A stretch of DNA of 26,251 nt, taken from the IMG/VR virus record IMGVR_UViG_3300038825_001176, positions 1-26,251 of that record; one strand, given 5' to 3'. Source of the stretch: a virus. Under the pieces are notes generated by a model that worked only from the letters and a program-made list of their open reading frames with translations, did not search any database and had not been told where the DNA came from. Below are positions 2,060 to 17,949 of this stretch, piece after piece; the stretch's first letter is position 1, and each line of letters begins with the position of its first letter. The position numbers were made by a program, and so were the translations under genes.

Positions 2060-3609
2060 TGGGCGTTCGATCTGCATTCCGCGAACTGTTTAGGCGTGAG
2101 CGGCCTCAGCGCCGCCGTAGTTATGCAGGCGCAAGGGTTAGTCGGCTGACTGCTGACTGGGTGACGAGTGGCACCAGCGCAGACAGCGAAATTAAGTCCA
2201 GCATCAAGATGCTGCGCAACCGGGCGCGGCAGCTTTGCAGGGACAACGACTATGCAAAGCAGGCGCTCAGGAGCATCACCAACAATGTGATCGGCCATGG
2301 CATCTATCACCAGTCACAGGTGCGAATGCAGCGTGGCGGTCGGATGGATGAGGCTGTCAATGCCCGCATCCATGCAGCTTGGAAGCGTTGGAGCCACAAG
2401 AGCCGTTGTGATGTCAGCGGCCTGCTGAGTTTTTATGACATGGAGCGGCTGCTATGCCGCAGCTTGGCTGAATCTGGTGAGGTGTTCATCAGGATTATCC
2501 GCCGACCTTTTGGCGACAGCGGCATTCCGTTTGCGCTGCAGGTGCTGGAGTCGGATTATCTGATCGATGACGACGTACAGGCCAGTAAGGACGGCAAGAC
2601 CGTCCGCATGGGCATTGAGCGGGATGAGTATCTGCGCCCGATTGCCTATAACTTCTACGCCAACCACCCCGGCGATGTTTACGCCGGGAATGTGCGCACA
2701 ACACGCCGCATCCGTGTTGATGCTGATGATGTCATCCATTTGTTCATCCCTGAGCGTCCGAGTCAGACGCGCGGCGTCACTTGGTTTGCATCAGCGTTGC
2801 AGCGTCTGCACATGCTCGACGGTTATGAGAACGCTGAGCTTGTGCGTGCGCGGGCTAGCAGCGCATTGATGGGATTCATCACCAGCCCTGAGGGCGAGCT
2901 TATTGGTGACGACGTTGTAGATGGTGAGCGGGTCACAGACTTTCAGCCTGGCGTGTTCAAGTACTTGGATCCCGGCCAATCGGTTGAGGTGCCACAGCTT
3001 GATGCTCCTGATGGTCAGCTCGAAGCGTTTACGCGGTCAATGCTGCGCGCTGCGGCCGCTGGAATTGGGGTGAGTTTCGAGAGCATTTCGAAGAACTACA
3101 GTCAATCGAATTACAGCAGCAGTCGGCTGAGCTTGCTTGAGGAGCGCGACACATATAAGTGTCTGCAGCGTTATTTCATCGAAAACTTCCATCAGATCGT
3201 TTTCGAGAAATGGATGGACATGGCGGTGTTGAGCGGAACGCTGAACCTGCCGGGTTATGAGACTGACCCTGATCGTTATCGCGCCAGCAAGTGGGTGCCG
3301 CGCAGCTGGGAATGGGTTGATCCTCAGAAAGAAGTCGCGGCCTACAAGGCAGCAGTCCGCAGCGGCTTTAAGACACTTGGCCAAGTCATCAGCGAGCAAG
3401 GCGGTGACATTGAAGAGGTGCTAACGATGCGTCAGGCCGAGCTGGCAATGCTGGATGAGAAGAACATCATCACGGACACCGATCCGAGCGAGGTCAATGG
3501 TGGCGGTGGTGTTCAGCCTGGCTTAGGCATGGGCGCAATCCCAGCCTTCGAGGACACTGAGCCACCGGTATCTGACGAGGAGGAGGTCCAGGAAGATGGC
3601 GACGATTGA
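2059..3609 (+). CDS. Portal protein, lambda gpB family
   Basis: This is the dodecameric ring at the capsid vertex through which DNA is pumped and to which the tail joins. At 516 aa it is close to lambda gpB (533 aa). Family signs in order are an Arg-rich start, NDYAKQALRSITNNVIGHGI, SLAESGEVFIRIIRRPFGDSG, the LQVLESDYL segment, VDADDVIHLFIPERPSQTRG, and ASSALMGFITSPEGE. Near the end SYSQSNYSSSR-like spacing is seen as KNYSQSNYSSSRLSLLEERD, then an acidic tail. It starts on an ATG overlapping the previous TGA and ends 14 bases inside the protease-capsid gene. The acidic C-terminus (SDEEEVQEDGDD) is coded in that overlap. Confidence 0.92.
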   Translation: MGVRSAFRELFRRERPQRRRSYAGARVSRLTADWVTSGTSADSEIKSSIKMLRNRARQLCRDNDYAKQALRSITNNVIGHGIYHQSQVRMQRGGRMDEAVNARIHAAWKRWSHKSRCDVSGLLSFYDMERLLCRSLAESGEVFIRIIRRPFGDSGIPFALQVLESDYLIDDDVQASKDGKTVRMGIERDEYLRPIAYNFYANHPGDVYAGNVRTTRRIRVDADDVIHLFIPERPSQTRGVTWFASALQRLHMLDGYENAELVRARASSALMGFITSPEGELIGDDVVDGERVTDFQPGVFKYLDPGQSVEVPQLDAPDGQLEAFTRSMLRAAAAGIGVSFESISKNYSQSNYSSSRLSLLEERDTYKCLQRYFIENFHQIVFEKWMDMAVLSGTLNLPGYETDPDRYRASKWVPRSWEWVDPQKEVAAYKAAVRSGFKTLGQVISEQGGDIEEVLTMRQAELAMLDEKNIITDTDPSEVNGGGGVQPGLGMGAIPAFEDTEPPVSDEEEVQEDGDD

Positions 3610-5983
3610 AGGCGTTGAGATCAACCTGATGCCAACAGAGGGCATGAGGGAAGAGGCGCAGCGTTATCGGGATTGGAAAGCTGACGGCGAAGCTGGCGGA
3701 ACTGAAGTTGCAGCACGCAGAGCCACGCAGATTCTGAGCGGTGATGAGCTAAGCGCTGACACCGTGATTGCCATGAATGCTTGGTTTGCTCGCCATGAAG
3801 TGGATAAACAAGGCGAAGGTTTTACGCCTGATGAGGATGGTTATCCATCAGCCGGCAGAGTCGCCTGGGCTGCATGGGGAGGAGACGCAGGAATGAGGTG
3901 GAGTAGCGGCAAAGCAGATAGAATCAAAGAAATTCGTGATAGGAGCATGGACACGAATAGGGCAGAACCTGATGAGCTTTCTGTTGGCGATTTTGTCCAG
4001 TGGAACAGCGCCGGAGGGCAGGCAAAAGGCAAGATTGATCGCATCGAACGCGATGGCTCAATCAACGTGCCCGATTCAGAGTTCACCATCAACGGTGATG
4101 AGGATGATCCTGCTGCCTTGATCACTGTTTATCGCGAAGGTGACGAAGGCTGGGAAGAAACTGACGTGCAGGTTGGCCATCGTTTCTCTGCACTGACCAA
4201 GATTGCAGCTCTGCGTTGGCTTGAGGGCAAGACCTACAAGCGCAGCGAAGACACTGCATTTGATGAAGTCGAAGATCGGATTTATGACTTCCCGTTTTCG
4301 AGTGAGCAGCCTGTCGCTCGCTATTTCGGAAATGAAATCCTTAGTCACGAAAAAGGCGCTGCTGATCTCAGTCGCCTGAATGACGGCGCTCCGCTGTTGT
4401 TCAACCACAACCCTGATCGTGTGATCGGAGTTGTGGAGCGTGCGTATATCGACGACGAAAAACGTCGTGGTTATGCGCGCGTGCGGTTCAGCCGCAATGA
4501 GTTCGCGCAGGAAGTCTTGCGCGACGTACGGGACGGAATCATCCGAAACGTGAGCTTTGGCTACGCCATCGACAAGATGGAAGAGAGAAGTAGTGGCGAA
4601 TTTGTTGCTACTTCATGGACTCCTACGGAGGTCTCAGCCGTTGCGATTCCTGCGGATCAAACCGTGGGTTTCGGTCGCTCTCTTTCGGAGTCCGAACCCG
4701 AACCCGCTGCCTCGGCAGCAATATCCACACCACCTGTTCCTGAAATGGAAAACACCACCCCTGACATGGAAGTGGTGCGGGCCGAGGCCGTTGAGGCTGA
4801 GCGTTCCCGCATTGCTGAAGTGACCAGCCTGTGCAACAAGCACGGCATGGAAGATCTGGGCCGTCAGCTCGTCGAGTCTGGCCGTTCGATCAACGAAGCA
4901 CGGGCTGCCGTGCTGGAAAAACTCAACGTCAAAGAGGAGCCCGTGAACATGAAGGCCGCTGAAATTGGCCTCACCGAGAAGGAAAGCCGCAGCTTCTCCT
5001 TCCTGCGTGCCATCAACTACCTGGCCAACCCGACCGATCGCGCCGCCCGTGAGGCTGCTGCGTTCGAGATCGAAGCCTCCGAAGCTGCAGCTGACAAGCT
5101 GGGCCGCGCTTCCCGTGGCATCACCATCCCTGTGGATGTGATGCGTCGCGATCTGAACGTGGGCACTGCCACCGCTGGCGGCAACCTCGTCGAGACCCAG
5201 CTGGATTCCGCCAACTTCATTGATTTGCTGCGGAACGCTTCCGCTCTGGATCAAGCTGGCGCAACCGTGCTGACTGGCCTGTCTGGCAACGTCAACATTC
5301 CCCGTCAGTCTGGTGCTGCTACCGCTTACTGGGTTGCTGAGTCTGGCTCACCCACCGAGTCCCAGCAGACTATCGATCAGGTCGCTCTGACTCCTAAGAC
5401 CTGCGGTGCTTTCACCGACTTCAGCCGCAAGCTGATGATCCAGTCCTCCATCGACGTGGAGAACATGGTGCGCACCGACCTGGCGCGTGTGCTGGCTCTT
5501 GAGATTGACCGCGTTGGTCTTTATGGCTCCGGCTCTTCCAACCAGCCCCTGGGCCTGAAGGACACGACCGGCGTTCTGAGCGAAGACTTCGCCGCCAACA
5601 CCCCGACCTTCGCTGAGGTTGTGGCTCTGGAAAGCGACGTGTCTGGCGCTAACGCTCTGCTGGGTTCTCCTGTCTATGTGATGAACGCTGCAATGGCTGG
5701 CAGCCTCAAGACTGCCACCAAGGATTCTGGCTCTGGTCAGTTCATCCTTCAGGGCGGTGAGGTCAACGGCTATCGCGCTGTGATCTCCAACCAAGTTGAA
5801 AGCAACGACCTCTGGTTCGGCAACTTCTCCGACCTGATCATTGCTTACTTCTCCGGCCTGGATCTGATGGTTGATCCCTTCACTGGCAGCACCTCCGGCA
5901 CCGTCCGCGTGGTCGCTCTGCAGGATGTGGACATCGCAGCCCGCCACGGTGCGAGCTTCTCACGCGGTAACAACACCCTCTGA
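3596..5983 (+). CDS. Fused prohead protease and HK97-fold major capsid protein
   Basis: A single 795-aa frame joins four parts. Residues about 1-115 have an ILSGDELSADTV...GYPSAGRVAWAAWGGDAG motif seen in many phage proteins. Residues about 126-200 (VGDFVQWNSAGGQAKGKI...INVPDSEFTI) look like the small TUDOR-type domain often placed before phage proteases. Residues about 205-330 look like a U35-type prohead protease (LLFNHNPDRVIGVVE, RNVSFGYAID). From about 384 there is a helical delta/scaffold region and then the HK97 capsid fold (TAGGNLVETQL, ALDQAGATVL, PRQSGAATAYWVAESG, ALEIDRVGLYGSGSSNQPLG). The protease would cut the scaffold from the shell protein. An internal ATG at 4949 has a good Shine-Dalgarno sequence. 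Codon use changes near 4745. Confidence 0.9.
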   Translation: MATIEGVEINLMPTEGMREEAQRYRDWKADGEAGGTEVAARRATQILSGDELSADTVIAMNAWFARHEVDKQGEGFTPDEDGYPSAGRVAWAAWGGDAGMRWSSGKADRIKEIRDRSMDTNRAEPDELSVGDFVQWNSAGGQAKGKIDRIERDGSINVPDSEFTINGDEDDPAALITVYREGDEGWEETDVQVGHRFSALTKIAALRWLEGKTYKRSEDTAFDEVEDRIYDFPFSSEQPVARYFGNEILSHEKGAADLSRLNDGAPLLFNHNPDRVIGVVERAYIDDEKRRGYARVRFSRNEFAQEVLRDVRDGIIRNVSFGYAIDKMEERSSGEFVATSWTPTEVSAVAIPADQTVGFGRSLSESEPEPAASAAISTPPVPEMENTTPDMEVVRAEAVEAERSRIAEVTSLCNKHGMEDLGRQLVESGRSINEARAAVLEKLNVKEEPVNMKAAEIGLTEKESRSFSFLRAINYLANPTDRAAREAAAFEIEASEAAADKLGRASRGITIPVDVMRRDLNVGTATAGGNLVETQLDSANFIDLLRNASALDQAGATVLTGLSGNVNIPRQSGAATAYWVAESGSPTESQQTIDQVALTPKTCGAFTDFSRKLMIQSSIDVENMVRTDLARVLALEIDRVGLYGSGSSNQPLGLKDTTGVLSEDFAANTPTFAEVVALESDVSGANALLGSPVYVMNAAMAGSLKTATKDSGSGQFILQGGEVNGYRAVISNQVESNDLWFGNFSDLIIAYFSGLDLMVDPFTGSTSGTVRVVALQDVDIAARHGASFSRGNNTL
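4933..4951 (+). promoter_or_regulatory. Possible internal ribosome binding site and start for the capsid part
   Basis: AGAGGAG at 4933-4939 is followed by 9 nt and an in-frame ATG at 4949-4951 (Met 452 of the fusion). Starting there gives a 344-aa protein made of the end of the delta domain plus the full capsid fold. This could give extra capsid copies without protease. It is inferred from sequence only. The motif also encodes KEEP, so coincidence is possible. Confidence 0.4.
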
Positions 5984-14368: not shown

Positions 14369-14869
14369 ATGACGTTCCCAGCAATCATTCCATCGAGTCG
14401 GACCTTTAGCCCGGGCGACATCCCGCGATCATTACAGGTTAGCCTTTCTGGTGCTACTGAAGGTTTTAGGCGCGGCAACCGACGCATACAGCAAACGCTG
14501 TCTTTAGGTTTTACTGATCTCAACGAAACGCAGTTAAATCTAATCAAGGCGCATTTTGTTGATCGTGAGGGTACGTTTGGCCTTTTCTATCTCTCGGCTG
14601 AGGCGTGGAACGGTTACACAACACCACCCATCAGCCTGATTAGTGATTACGCCTGGCGCTATGCAGCCCCGCCAACAATTACTGATGGCATTGTCGGTCG
14701 CTGGAGCGTTGACGTTGAGCTGGTCAGCTATGCAATCGATATTGGTGACTTGATTTTCGATGGCTTGACGGCATCGGCAACACCGGCAAGAACCTATATT
14801 CTGGACGGAGGTGCAGCAGCGGCAACGCCTGCTCGTGAATACATCGTTCAATCGACAGGGGCAGCATGA
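14369..14869 (+). CDS. gpM-like minor tail protein, copy 2 with C-terminal extension
   Basis: This 166-aa paralog of the preceding gene has SSRTFSPGDIPRSLQVSLSG, QTLSLGFTDLNETQLNLIKAHF, GTFGLFYLSAEAWNGYTTPP and WRYAAPPTI. It adds about 45 residues at the C-terminus with a repeated A-T-P-A-R-x-Y-I motif (ATPARTYILDGG, ATPAREYIVQS), perhaps a docking tail for the fibre encoded next. The pair may form two rings or a heteromer at the tail tip. It ends in an ATGA overlap with the tail fibre gene. Confidence 0.68.
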   Translation: MTFPAIIPSSRTFSPGDIPRSLQVSLSGATEGFRRGNRRIQQTLSLGFTDLNETQLNLIKAHFVDREGTFGLFYLSAEAWNGYTTPPISLISDYAWRYAAPPTITDGIVGRWSVDVELVSYAIDIGDLIFDGLTASATPARTYILDGGAAAATPAREYIVQSTGAA

Positions 14870-17800
14870 GCATCACCCTCACGGCTCTTCAGAAACAGCG
14901 CCGCGATACTGCGGCTAACTGGACCTCAGCTAATCCAACGCTGTTGGCTGGTGAGCTGGGATATGAGTCAGACACGGGCAAATTCAAGATTGGCGACGGC
15001 TCGACAGCTTGGACTGCGCTTGCTTACACCTATTGGAGTCAGATCAGTGCTTACCCTCTAGCGAGTGCAGACATCGCGAACGACGCGATTGGCGCAGATC
15101 AACTGGCTCACACTGCTGTTACTGCCGGTTCTTATACCGCAGCTGACATCACTGTTGATGCACAAGGCCGGATCACGTCTGCTGCATCTGGAACGATCGC
15201 CACTAGCGAGATTGCCAACGATGCTGTCACTCCAGAGAAACTAGAAGACACCAGTGTTACCGCTGGAAGTTATACGGCTGCTGACATTACCGTTGATGCC
15301 CAGGGCCGGATCACTGCCGCAGCAAACGGGCAGATTGGGCCAAGTGAACTTGCTGATACTGCAGTTACAGCTGGTAGCTACACAGCTGCTGACATCACGG
15401 TTGATGCTCAAGGTCGAATCACTGCCGCAGCATCAGGCACGATCGGCACAACTCAGATTGATAACGACGCCGTAACGGCTGAGAAATTGGCCGACACAAG
15501 CGTGACGGCTGGAAGTTACACAGCGGCTGATATTACTGTTGATGCGCAAGGACGCATTACTGCTGCAGCCAGCGGCACGATTGCAACTTCCGAAATTGCT
15601 AACGGGGCTGTTACCTCAGCCAAACTAGACACCAACATTGATATTGCCGGCACTCTTGATGTCACTGGAGTTGCCACATTCGACAACAACGTTGTTGTCA
15701 CGGGTGATCTGACCGTCAACGGCACAACCACTACGATCAACAGCACAACGCTGGAGGTCGATGACAAAAACATCGAGCTGGGCACTGTTGCCACCCCGTC
15801 AGACACTACGGCCAACGGTGGGGGCCTGACACTCAAGGGGTCTACAGATCACACAATTATTTGGACAAACAGCACCGACAGTTGGGATTTTTCTGAGCAC
15901 CTCAACATCGCTAGTGCCAAAGAGTTTCGCATTGCAGGCACTAAGGTTCTTGATGCAACCAGCCTTGGCAGTGCTGTTGTCAGTTCAAGCCTGACAAGCG
16001 TTGGCACGATCACAACCGGCGTTTGGAATGGCACGCCAATCGCGACTGATTACATTGCCAACGATTCTGTAACGGCTGACAAGCTGGCAGACACAAGTGT
16101 TACTGCTGGTAGTTATACGGCTGCTGATATTACGGTTGACGCGCAAGGCCGAATCACCTCTGCAGCATCAGGAACTATTGGAACAAATGAAATTGCCAAC
16201 GATGCTGTAACCGCAGATAAACTTGAAGACACTTCTGTGACCGCTGGCAGCTATACGCTGAGCAGCATTACTGTTGACGCGCAAGGCCGTATCACAGCTG
16301 CGTCGAGTGGCACTGCTGCTGACACTGACAAGATCGCCGAAGGCAACACAGAGGCTGAGGTTGTTGATACCGGCTCTGATGGGCACTTCAAGGTCACAAC
16401 AGAGAATACTGAGCGAATCAGGGTCGGGCCGGCAGGCCAGATCGGTATTGCGGGTGCGAACTACGGCACCAGCGGTCAGGTTTTAACAAGTGGTGGCGCA
16501 TCAGGTGCTGTTAGCTGGGCAGATGCTGCAAGTGGTGGTCCTTCTTTTACTGCTACGGCATCAGGCGCTCTTGCTAATGGCGACACTGTGATTGTTAAGT
16601 CTGACGGCAAAGTGGCAGCTGTGGCAAGTACAACAATTACTGCTGCAGTTGGAACTGAAGAAACTTTCGAAGCGAGTGCTTTAAATACTTCTCTCAGTCG
16701 TGGCACTAGATCAGTTTATGATGCGAGTACAAATAAAATAGTTACTGCGTATGTGATGAGCAGTAACAATGAATTGAAAGCAGTAGTTAGTTCTATTAGC
16801 GACACAACTCCTAGTTTTGGCACAGCGACATCACTGGGTAACAGCAAAGATCAGCCTGTAATAGCGTGCAACGGGTCTGGCAAAGTTGTTATTGCTTATA
16901 GAGATGAAGGTAATAGCGATTACGGGACTGCTATTGTTGGCACAATTAGTGGCACTTCAATTAGTTTTGGCACTGCCGTTGTTTACAACAGCAGCAACAC
17001 TCAGCATCAGACTATTGTATATGATGAAAATGCGGACAAATTTGTAATTGCATATTATGACGCTGGAAACTCTAGGACCAGTGCAATCGTGGGCACGGTA
17101 AGCGGCACATCAATTAGTTTTGGCACAGAAGTTGAAATGTTTTCAGCTTCAACTGGTGGCATAGACGCTGCATATGACCCTGTAGCACAAAAGTGTGTGT
17201 TCTTTGCGATGCTAAATGCTAGCGATGATAAAGCAATCGTTGGCACTATAAGTGGTACATCAATTAGTTTCGGCACGGCAACAACCTTTTCAACTGCTGA
17301 CGCAATAAATACAAATGTAGTTTACGATTCAAGCGCTGAAAAATTCATTGCTGTCTACGAGGAAGATGGTTCATCCGATAAATTATATGCGATAGTTGGC
17401 ACAGTATCTGGCACTTCAATAAGTGTAGGAACAAAGGTAGAGTTGACAACATCAGCTGTAGACCATGTTGCCGCTGCGTATGATGCGCAAGCCGATAAAA
17501 CCTTGGTTGCATATAAGACTTCTACAAATACAGGAGTTTTTATTCTTTTGACTACAAGTGGTACAAGTGTCACCGCTAACTCAGAGACTCAATTTGTTAG
17601 TAGCGTTGATGGCACCAGTGCTGTCTATGACGAATCACAAAAACGAGTCGCTATTTCGTACCGTGATGGCAGTGCTGCCGGACGAGGCAAAACCAGGGTT
17701 GTCAGAAATGCGGTCACTACAACAAATCTCACAGCAGAAAATTATATTGGCATTTCAGATGCTGCTTATGCAGACGGAGCTACAGCCACAATTCAAATCG

Positions 17801-17949
17801 TAGGCGCGGTTGACGATGCTCAATCAAGCTTGACGCCCGGTCAATCTTATTTTGTGCAAACGGATGGCAGTTTAAACACAACGGCAGATACGCCTTCTGT
17901 TTTTGCTGGAACGGCGGTTGCTGCAACCAAGCTGATTGTGAAGGGGTGA
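14866..17949 (+). CDS. Long tail fibre with internal repeats and a seven-bladed propeller-like region
   Basis: This is a 1027-aa protein. Residues 10-57 hold the NPTLLAGELGYESDTGKFKIGDG attachment module shared with the C1q-like gene at 6853. Residues 85-245 and 400-485 contain six copies of a DTSVTAGSYTAADITVDAQG-type repeat. Between them is a DLTVNGTTTTINSTTLEVDD region known to me from cyanophage fibres. Residues about 612-950 hold seven roughly 50-residue repeats (Y-D-x-x-x-D/E-K-x-V-x-x-Y and IVGTISGTSISFG), as in a beta-propeller. The last 65 residues (PGQSYFVQTDGSLNTTADTP) are a trimer or chaperone-like end also seen in cyanophage fibres. It is probably the receptor-binding fibre. The propeller section is visibly AT-richer. 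Confidence 0.85.
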   Translation: MSITLTALQKQRRDTAANWTSANPTLLAGELGYESDTGKFKIGDGSTAWTALAYTYWSQISAYPLASADIANDAIGADQLAHTAVTAGSYTAADITVDAQGRITSAASGTIATSEIANDAVTPEKLEDTSVTAGSYTAADITVDAQGRITAAANGQIGPSELADTAVTAGSYTAADITVDAQGRITAAASGTIGTTQIDNDAVTAEKLADTSVTAGSYTAADITVDAQGRITAAASGTIATSEIANGAVTSAKLDTNIDIAGTLDVTGVATFDNNVVVTGDLTVNGTTTTINSTTLEVDDKNIELGTVATPSDTTANGGGLTLKGSTDHTIIWTNSTDSWDFSEHLNIASAKEFRIAGTKVLDATSLGSAVVSSSLTSVGTITTGVWNGTPIATDYIANDSVTADKLADTSVTAGSYTAADITVDAQGRITSAASGTIGTNEIANDAVTADKLEDTSVTAGSYTLSSITVDAQGRITAASSGTAADTDKIAEGNTEAEVVDTGSDGHFKVTTENTERIRVGPAGQIGIAGANYGTSGQVLTSGGASGAVSWADAASGGPSFTATASGALANGDTVIVKSDGKVAAVASTTITAAVGTEETFEASALNTSLSRGTRSVYDASTNKIVTAYVMSSNNELKAVVSSISDTTPSFGTATSLGNSKDQPVIACNGSGKVVIAYRDEGNSDYGTAIVGTISGTSISFGTAVVYNSSNTQHQTIVYDENADKFVIAYYDAGNSRTSAIVGTVSGTSISFGTEVEMFSASTGGIDAAYDPVAQKCVFFAMLNASDDKAIVGTISGTSISFGTATTFSTADAINTNVVYDSSAEKFIAVYEEDGSSDKLYAIVGTVSGTSISVGTKVELTTSAVDHVAAAYDAQADKTLVAYKTSTNTGVFILLTTSGTSVTANSETQFVSSVDGTSAVYDESQKRVAISYRDGSAAGRGKTRVVRNAVTTTNLTAENYIGISDAAYADGATATIQIVGAVDDAQSSLTPGQSYFVQTDGSLNTTADTPSVFAGTAVAATKLIVKG
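15118..15600 (+). repeat. Fibre repeat block A (four copies)
   Basis: Four copies of the repeat containing VTAGSYTAADITVDAQGRIT begin at 15118, 15256, 15364 and 15502, spaced 138, 108 and 138 nt. The protein is nearly identical in each copy while the DNA differs at most synonymous positions, including Ser as TCT in one copy and AGT or AGC in the others. Confidence 0.9.
16060..16320 (+). repeat. Fibre repeat block B (two copies)
   Basis: Two more copies of the same repeat have VTAGSYT starting at 16099 and 16237 (138 nt apart). They are separated from block A by about 460 nt coding a different beta region. The final copy changes AAD to LSS before ITVDAQGRIT. Confidence 0.88.
16700..17715 (+). 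repeat. Seven propeller-like repeats in the fibre
   Basis: Seven repeats of about 46-52 residues share Y-D/N...K-x-V-x-x-Y at their start and GTxSGTSISFGT at their end. The IVGTISGTS-type segments begin near 16934, 17086, 17237 and 17392, a period of about 150 nt. The first, sixth and seventh repeats are more diverged. The size and number of repeats suit a beta-propeller, which is an inference. Confidence 0.7.

Follow-up and report, generated by a model that had tools for sequence, protein, structure and literature searches.

A candidate nested capsid start inside a phage protease-capsid fusion gene

The window analyzed here is a 26,251-nucleotide (nt) stretch of viral DNA (IMG/VR record IMGVR_UViG_3300038825_001176, positions 1 to 26,251). 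One of its genes, on the + strand at 3596-5983, joins a prohead protease to a capsid protein in a single frame. The comparisons described below suggest that this is a nested, in-frame two-product gene whose inner capsid start is the ATG at 4745, and we put the probability of this reading at roughly 0.6. The arrangement would resemble that of phage lambda, in which Nu3 is nested in frame within C. The sequence features expected of such a gene, a conserved inner start with its own ribosome binding site, are present in two groups of related phages, the CRP-811 and CRP-823 groups.

The open reading frame (ORF) of 795 amino acids is open throughout. Together with the profile matches it bears out the original prediction of a protease-capsid frame that also holds a TUDOR-like domain. 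Its start is preceded by a Shine-Dalgarno (SD) region at 3579-3588 with a duplex energy of -13.3 kcal/mol. An N-terminal domain (residues 1-105, 3596-3910) is followed by the TUDOR-like domain (Pfam Hva1_TUDOR, residues 131-179, 3986-4132) and by the prohead protease domain (residues 253-355, 4352-4660). The latter scores 37.3 bits against a cut-off of 21 with the Pfam profile Peptidase_S78 (PF04586), which identifies it as an S78 prohead protease, and His271 and Ser320 of the predicted protease are invariant in 34 relatives. Residues 528-789 match Phage_capsid (PF05065) at 4e-41, as expected of an HK97-type capsid protein. The sole match of the 795-residue protein among PDB sequences is the capsid of Dinoroseobacter phage R4C (8gta, 268 residues). 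Because it aligns from residue 528, the N-terminus of the mature shell protein probably lies close to that residue, and the mature HK97-fold region is placed at 5177-5962. With the mature capsid starting near residue 528, residues 384 to about 527 would correspond to the delta (scaffold) domain of HK97. The gene scores 177.6 bits, over residues 226-461 only, with the NCBIfam model for protease/capsid fusions (NF045541), for which the curated cut-off is 525; it is the same kind of fusion, though not a member of that model. The fusion is uninterrupted in all 80 of the closest IMG/VR relatives, and the nearest isolates, S-CBS3, S-CBS1 and CRP-811, have full-length homologs with 49-50% identity and the same domain order. 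Protease-capsid fusion as such is already known, for example from phage MD8.

When distant fused relatives are aligned, an in-frame ATG homologous to Met384 of the window gene (nt 4745) appears at the junction of protease and delta. Eighty loci each from the CRP-811 and CRP-823 relatives were dereplicated at 90% identity to 33 and 30 sequences; these are related to one another, and the p-values, which overstate independence, should be read as strong rather than exact. The homologous methionine is present in 33/33 and 30/30 of these sequences, with an AGGAG-type sequence ahead of it. The mean SD duplex energy is -8.4 kcal/mol in the CRP-811 group, compared with -5.05 in synonymous shuffles (Wilcoxon p 1e-10), and -8.8 kcal/mol in the CRP-823 group, compared with -4.93 (p 9e-10). 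At a threshold of -5.5 kcal/mol, 100% of the junction ATGs but only 13-15% of other in-frame ATGs pass in both groups. The GG core of the SD sequence can be found in any of the three codon frames (AAG GAG, AAA GGA GAT, CAA AGG AGT), and about six changes of frame are needed on the tree by a count of fewest changes, with the SD sequence retained. Protein-level constraint cannot explain the SD sequence, since its core shifts codon frame while the match is kept. The residue after the junction methionine is Ser, Thr or Ala in all 63 sequences, as at ordinary protein starts. An SD-ATG pair is also found at the junction in the isolates CRP-406, R4C and RcCronus; a scan with R4C as the query retrieved no loci. 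The junction ribosome binding sites of the CRP groups (loci L105, L126, L216 and others) often sit in small hairpins, which may restrain initiation at the inner ATG.

Codon use changes along the fused gene. The original prediction placed a change near 4745, and a plot of the codon adaptation index (CAI) in 50-codon windows shows a step: values of about 0.4-0.55 in the protease give way to 0.62-0.65 just past the junction and 0.75-0.89 in the capsid (the reference was the capsid part of relatives, and expression is therefore not measured independently by these levels). In a two-segment codon model with the protein sequence held fixed, the break falls at codon 384 (nt 4748) and has a log Bayes factor of 11.4, whereas 200 synonymous shuffles of the gene gave a maximum of 2.9 and a mean of -5.2. 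The step and its optimum thus agree with the prediction, but the step is not sharp: the profile is flat over approximately codons 350-400, an interval that includes the conserved domain junction, and a second grid gave codon 353 (log Bayes factor 11.9). When the window clade is pooled, the step lies two codons before Met384.

The delta domain was compared with the protease using a reference trained on half of the protease and capsid columns and tested on the other columns. Its first half is capsid-like in the window clade (difference 0.170, p 0.0006), the CRP-811 group (0.123, p 0.0006) and the CRP-823 group (0.082, p 0.0002). It is not capsid-like in the ep3 group (0.011, p 0.21), which does not have a well-conserved junction SD. 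A step produced by selection for shell accuracy alone is expected later, because delta is absent from the virion. Values of z for the step in single genes are 7.9 in the window, 7.0-7.5 in the S-CBS phages, 4.2 in S-LBS1, 3.5-4.5 in the CRP phages, 1.9-2.2 in R4C and RcCronus and 0.7-2.9 among the plain fusions, although ep3 reaches 4.1; this ranking is only suggestive, since the hosts differ. Among the other long genes of the window, a comparable break is found only in a fiber-like gene (14866-17949), at codon 539 (log Bayes factor 11.7, shuffled maximum 5.7). The first part of that gene is built of repeats, and the gene looks mosaic. Because it breaks too, we rejected the whole-gene codon break alone as proof of internal initiation.

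The junction ATG of the window (4745-4747) was overlooked in the original prediction. It lies inside the codon break and opens a proposed nested capsid frame of 412 amino acids (4745-5980, + strand), comprising delta and the capsid. Met384 is conserved in 24/26 dereplicated sequences of the window clade and is also present in S-CBS1, S-CBS3 and S-LBS1. In the window it is preceded by a leader rich in A, C and T and without an SD sequence (4720-4744), and this by an RNA hairpin, GCUGC-CUCG-GCAGC (4706-4719), 25 nt upstream of the ATG. From -25 to +20 around Met384 the mRNA of the window clade shows weaker folding than after synonymous shuffling (p 2.6e-6). The hairpin is kept as far as S-CBS1, S-CBS3, S-LBS1 and locus L083, with compensatory exchanges of G-C for A-U and of G-C for U-A. 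In the alignment 98.3% of the cells pair, and the covariation score was reached by 0/500 shuffles; slid controls pair in 16-77%, the higher values being due to GCN repeats. Codons 369-375 have excess synonymous conservation (z 2.2-2.9). These features suggest an SD-independent start or an RNA-processing signal in the window clade.

The predicted 412-residue product is modeled by AlphaFold as a helical delta domain plus an HK97 fold (pLDDT, the predicted local distance difference test, 75.4). The best PDB match of the model is again the R4C capsid 8gta (E 9.5e-24), followed by gene transfer agent (GTA) and HK97 entries. The whole-protein run was poor (pLDDT 48.6) and was used for helix order only.

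We propose that two products are made. Initiation at ATG 3596 would yield the 795-residue protein, in which the protease is built into the capsid subunit, and initiation at ATG 4745 would yield the 412-residue precursor, of about 44 kDa and equivalent to HK97 gp5. Many plain precursors would co-assemble with few protease-bearing ones, and the protease would then remove itself and the delta domains to leave a capsid protein of about 268 residues, like the chain seen in R4C. Use of ATG 4745 in the phage of the window, with a low-structure leader behind a conserved hairpin, is inferred from these comparisons, as are the product ratio, the co-assembly and the self-removal. The wider generalization stands at about even odds: that a widely distributed group of aquatic phages shares a nested capsid precursor, with an SD sequence of drifting frame in a Roseobacter type and a hairpin plus unstructured leader in a cyanophage type, and that relative initiation sets the protease:capsid ratio. 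A literature search of partial coverage turned up no protease-capsid fusion described as having a nested capsid start.

Several known systems are comparable in part. In lambda the protease gene contains the nested scaffold gene (Shaw and Murialdo 1980, as cited in PMC8508860). The gene proposed here is like C/Nu3 in that one frame gives a full-length protease product and a shorter C-terminal product from an inner start. It differs in that the nested product of lambda is a scaffold and its capsid gene is separate, whereas here the nested product would be a capsid precursor with a built-in scaffold domain. HK97 shares the S78 protease and the removal of an N-terminal delta domain from a capsid protein of HK97 fold, but its genes 4 and 5 are separate and adjacent (PMC8508860), and the window has one open frame. 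The fused gene of Pseudomonas phage MD8, gp5 (PMC8508860), and the fusions described by NF045541 likewise encode the protease, scaffold and capsid domains together in a single gene; no inner start is mentioned in the MD8 paper or in the name of the model. Of the nearest isolates, CRP-811 has a strong junction SD, and the cyanophages S-CBS1 and S-CBS3, like the window, have none. R4C has a fused gene whose solved capsid chain is the one aligned above, but it lacks the N-terminal and TUDOR-like domains and has an SD sequence ahead of its junction Met189.

The alternative that survives best, although we consider it somewhat unlikely, is a plain polyprotein, in which only the full-length protein is made, all capsid arises by cleavage, and the codon step reflects stronger selection on the structural part, for accuracy or for folding. 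A number of observations weigh against the nested start, and several of them favor this alternative. No SD sequence is present ahead of ATG 4745 in the window, S-CBS1, S-CBS3 or S-LBS1, where some other genes have one, and Met384 has been lost in two lineages of the window clade. In Mano, Mica, Alexa, MQ-4 and FoX3, which are also fused relatives, the junction carries no SD-ATG; evidently such a gene is workable without one. The ep3 gene also steps. The CRP junctions are more structured than synonymous shuffles, while a simple open start predicts otherwise. The case for the hairpin of the window clade amounts to about two compensatory events, and hairpins of this type are favored where coding is rich in Ala. 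The sub-clade that lacks a second internal ATG, at 4949, does not make most of its codon rise until the second half of delta. A plain polyprotein leaves unexplained why the SD sequence is kept through changes of codon frame in the CRP groups. Selection for shell accuracy also predicts a step at the mature N-terminus, yet the discarded delta domain is already capsid-like; selection for accurate folding of the scaffold could still account for this. Nested and plain fusions both seem to exist.

A separate capsid RNA is unlikely. Under this explanation the hairpin at 4706-4719 would lie close to an RNA-processing site or an internal promoter, from which a stable message would arise whose short leader precedes ATG 4745. 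The compensatory changes and the synonymous conservation about 25 nt before the ATG, in a clade without an SD sequence, are consistent with it. Against it, no sigma-70-like promoter was found in 4400-5000, and a comparison with Rfam gave no match; the hairpin could also result incidentally from the coding of an Ala-rich linker, which may be a cleavage site of the protease. It is quite improbable that an ancient fusion of separate protease and capsid genes left the junction ATG and the codon step behind as functionless relics. The separate, adjacent genes 4 and 5 of HK97 (PMC8508860) and the missing junction SD of the window clade would fit such an origin, but the SD sites of the CRP groups are actively maintained. 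A relic of codon use would also be expected to fade, and yet it is the window clade that shows the strongest step.

The original prediction had placed an internal start for extra capsid at ATG 4949 (Met452). The sequence it pointed to exists: AGAGGAG with a 9-nt spacing before an in-frame ATG (4933-4951, + strand) is the only exact match in the contig, and in the sub-clade that bears the ATG the AGGAG-like sequence mostly outlasts changes of amino acid (KEE, PQE, YQE). The ATG is present in 44/80 of the analyzed sequences and absent from 36/80, and the median log Bayes factor of the codon step is 14.5 without it and 9.6 with it. An equally strong SD precedes some in-frame ATG or GTG of the linker/delta region in 43% of synonymous shuffles, and no excess of synonymous conservation was found around the site. 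A start at Met452 would delete the first three predicted delta helices (residues 391-442), and the codon step is already significant upstream. This start is highly improbable and was rejected on its absence from many relatives, the shuffles, the lack of synonymous conservation and the upstream step. Other SD-like sites in relatives, at residues 348-351 and 409, are no stronger than shuffles and were also rejected. The idea of an internal start for extra capsid is well supported in the related groups and plausible here, but its site is most likely ATG 4745 and not ATG 4949.

Fused protease-capsid genes seem to impose one protease per capsid subunit, and a conserved nested start would lift this puzzle. 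If correct, the proposal provides a second instance of the lambda C/Nu3 logic, one that yields capsid, and it means that annotations of a 600-840-residue "major capsid protein" in these phages conceal where the capsid precursor really begins. With two expression levels within one frame, the gene would also serve as a natural experiment on codon selection, and it points to a possible switch from SD to hairpin between host groups.

Further observations concern the fused gene outside the junction. Within the window, the codons of its TUDOR-like part (4001-4180) resemble those of the capsid (CAI 0.63-0.76), and those of its neighbors do not. An in-frame ATG at 3893 (residue 100) has a strong SD match (3877-3895, -11.9 kcal/mol) and lies near the gene start of some relatives, and is a possible further start. 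An 85% identical fusion occurs in locus L082, on a contig binned as a Planctomycetota metagenome-assembled genome (MAG); this is a phage or a binning stray and not evidence of host. A genome scan turned up no cyanobacterium. The N-terminal domain is mobile. It is absent from loci L025-L027, L039 and L054, is a separate ORF in CRP-823 (L091, 3998-4714) and in L064, and occurs alone in Vibrio and Actinomycetia phages.

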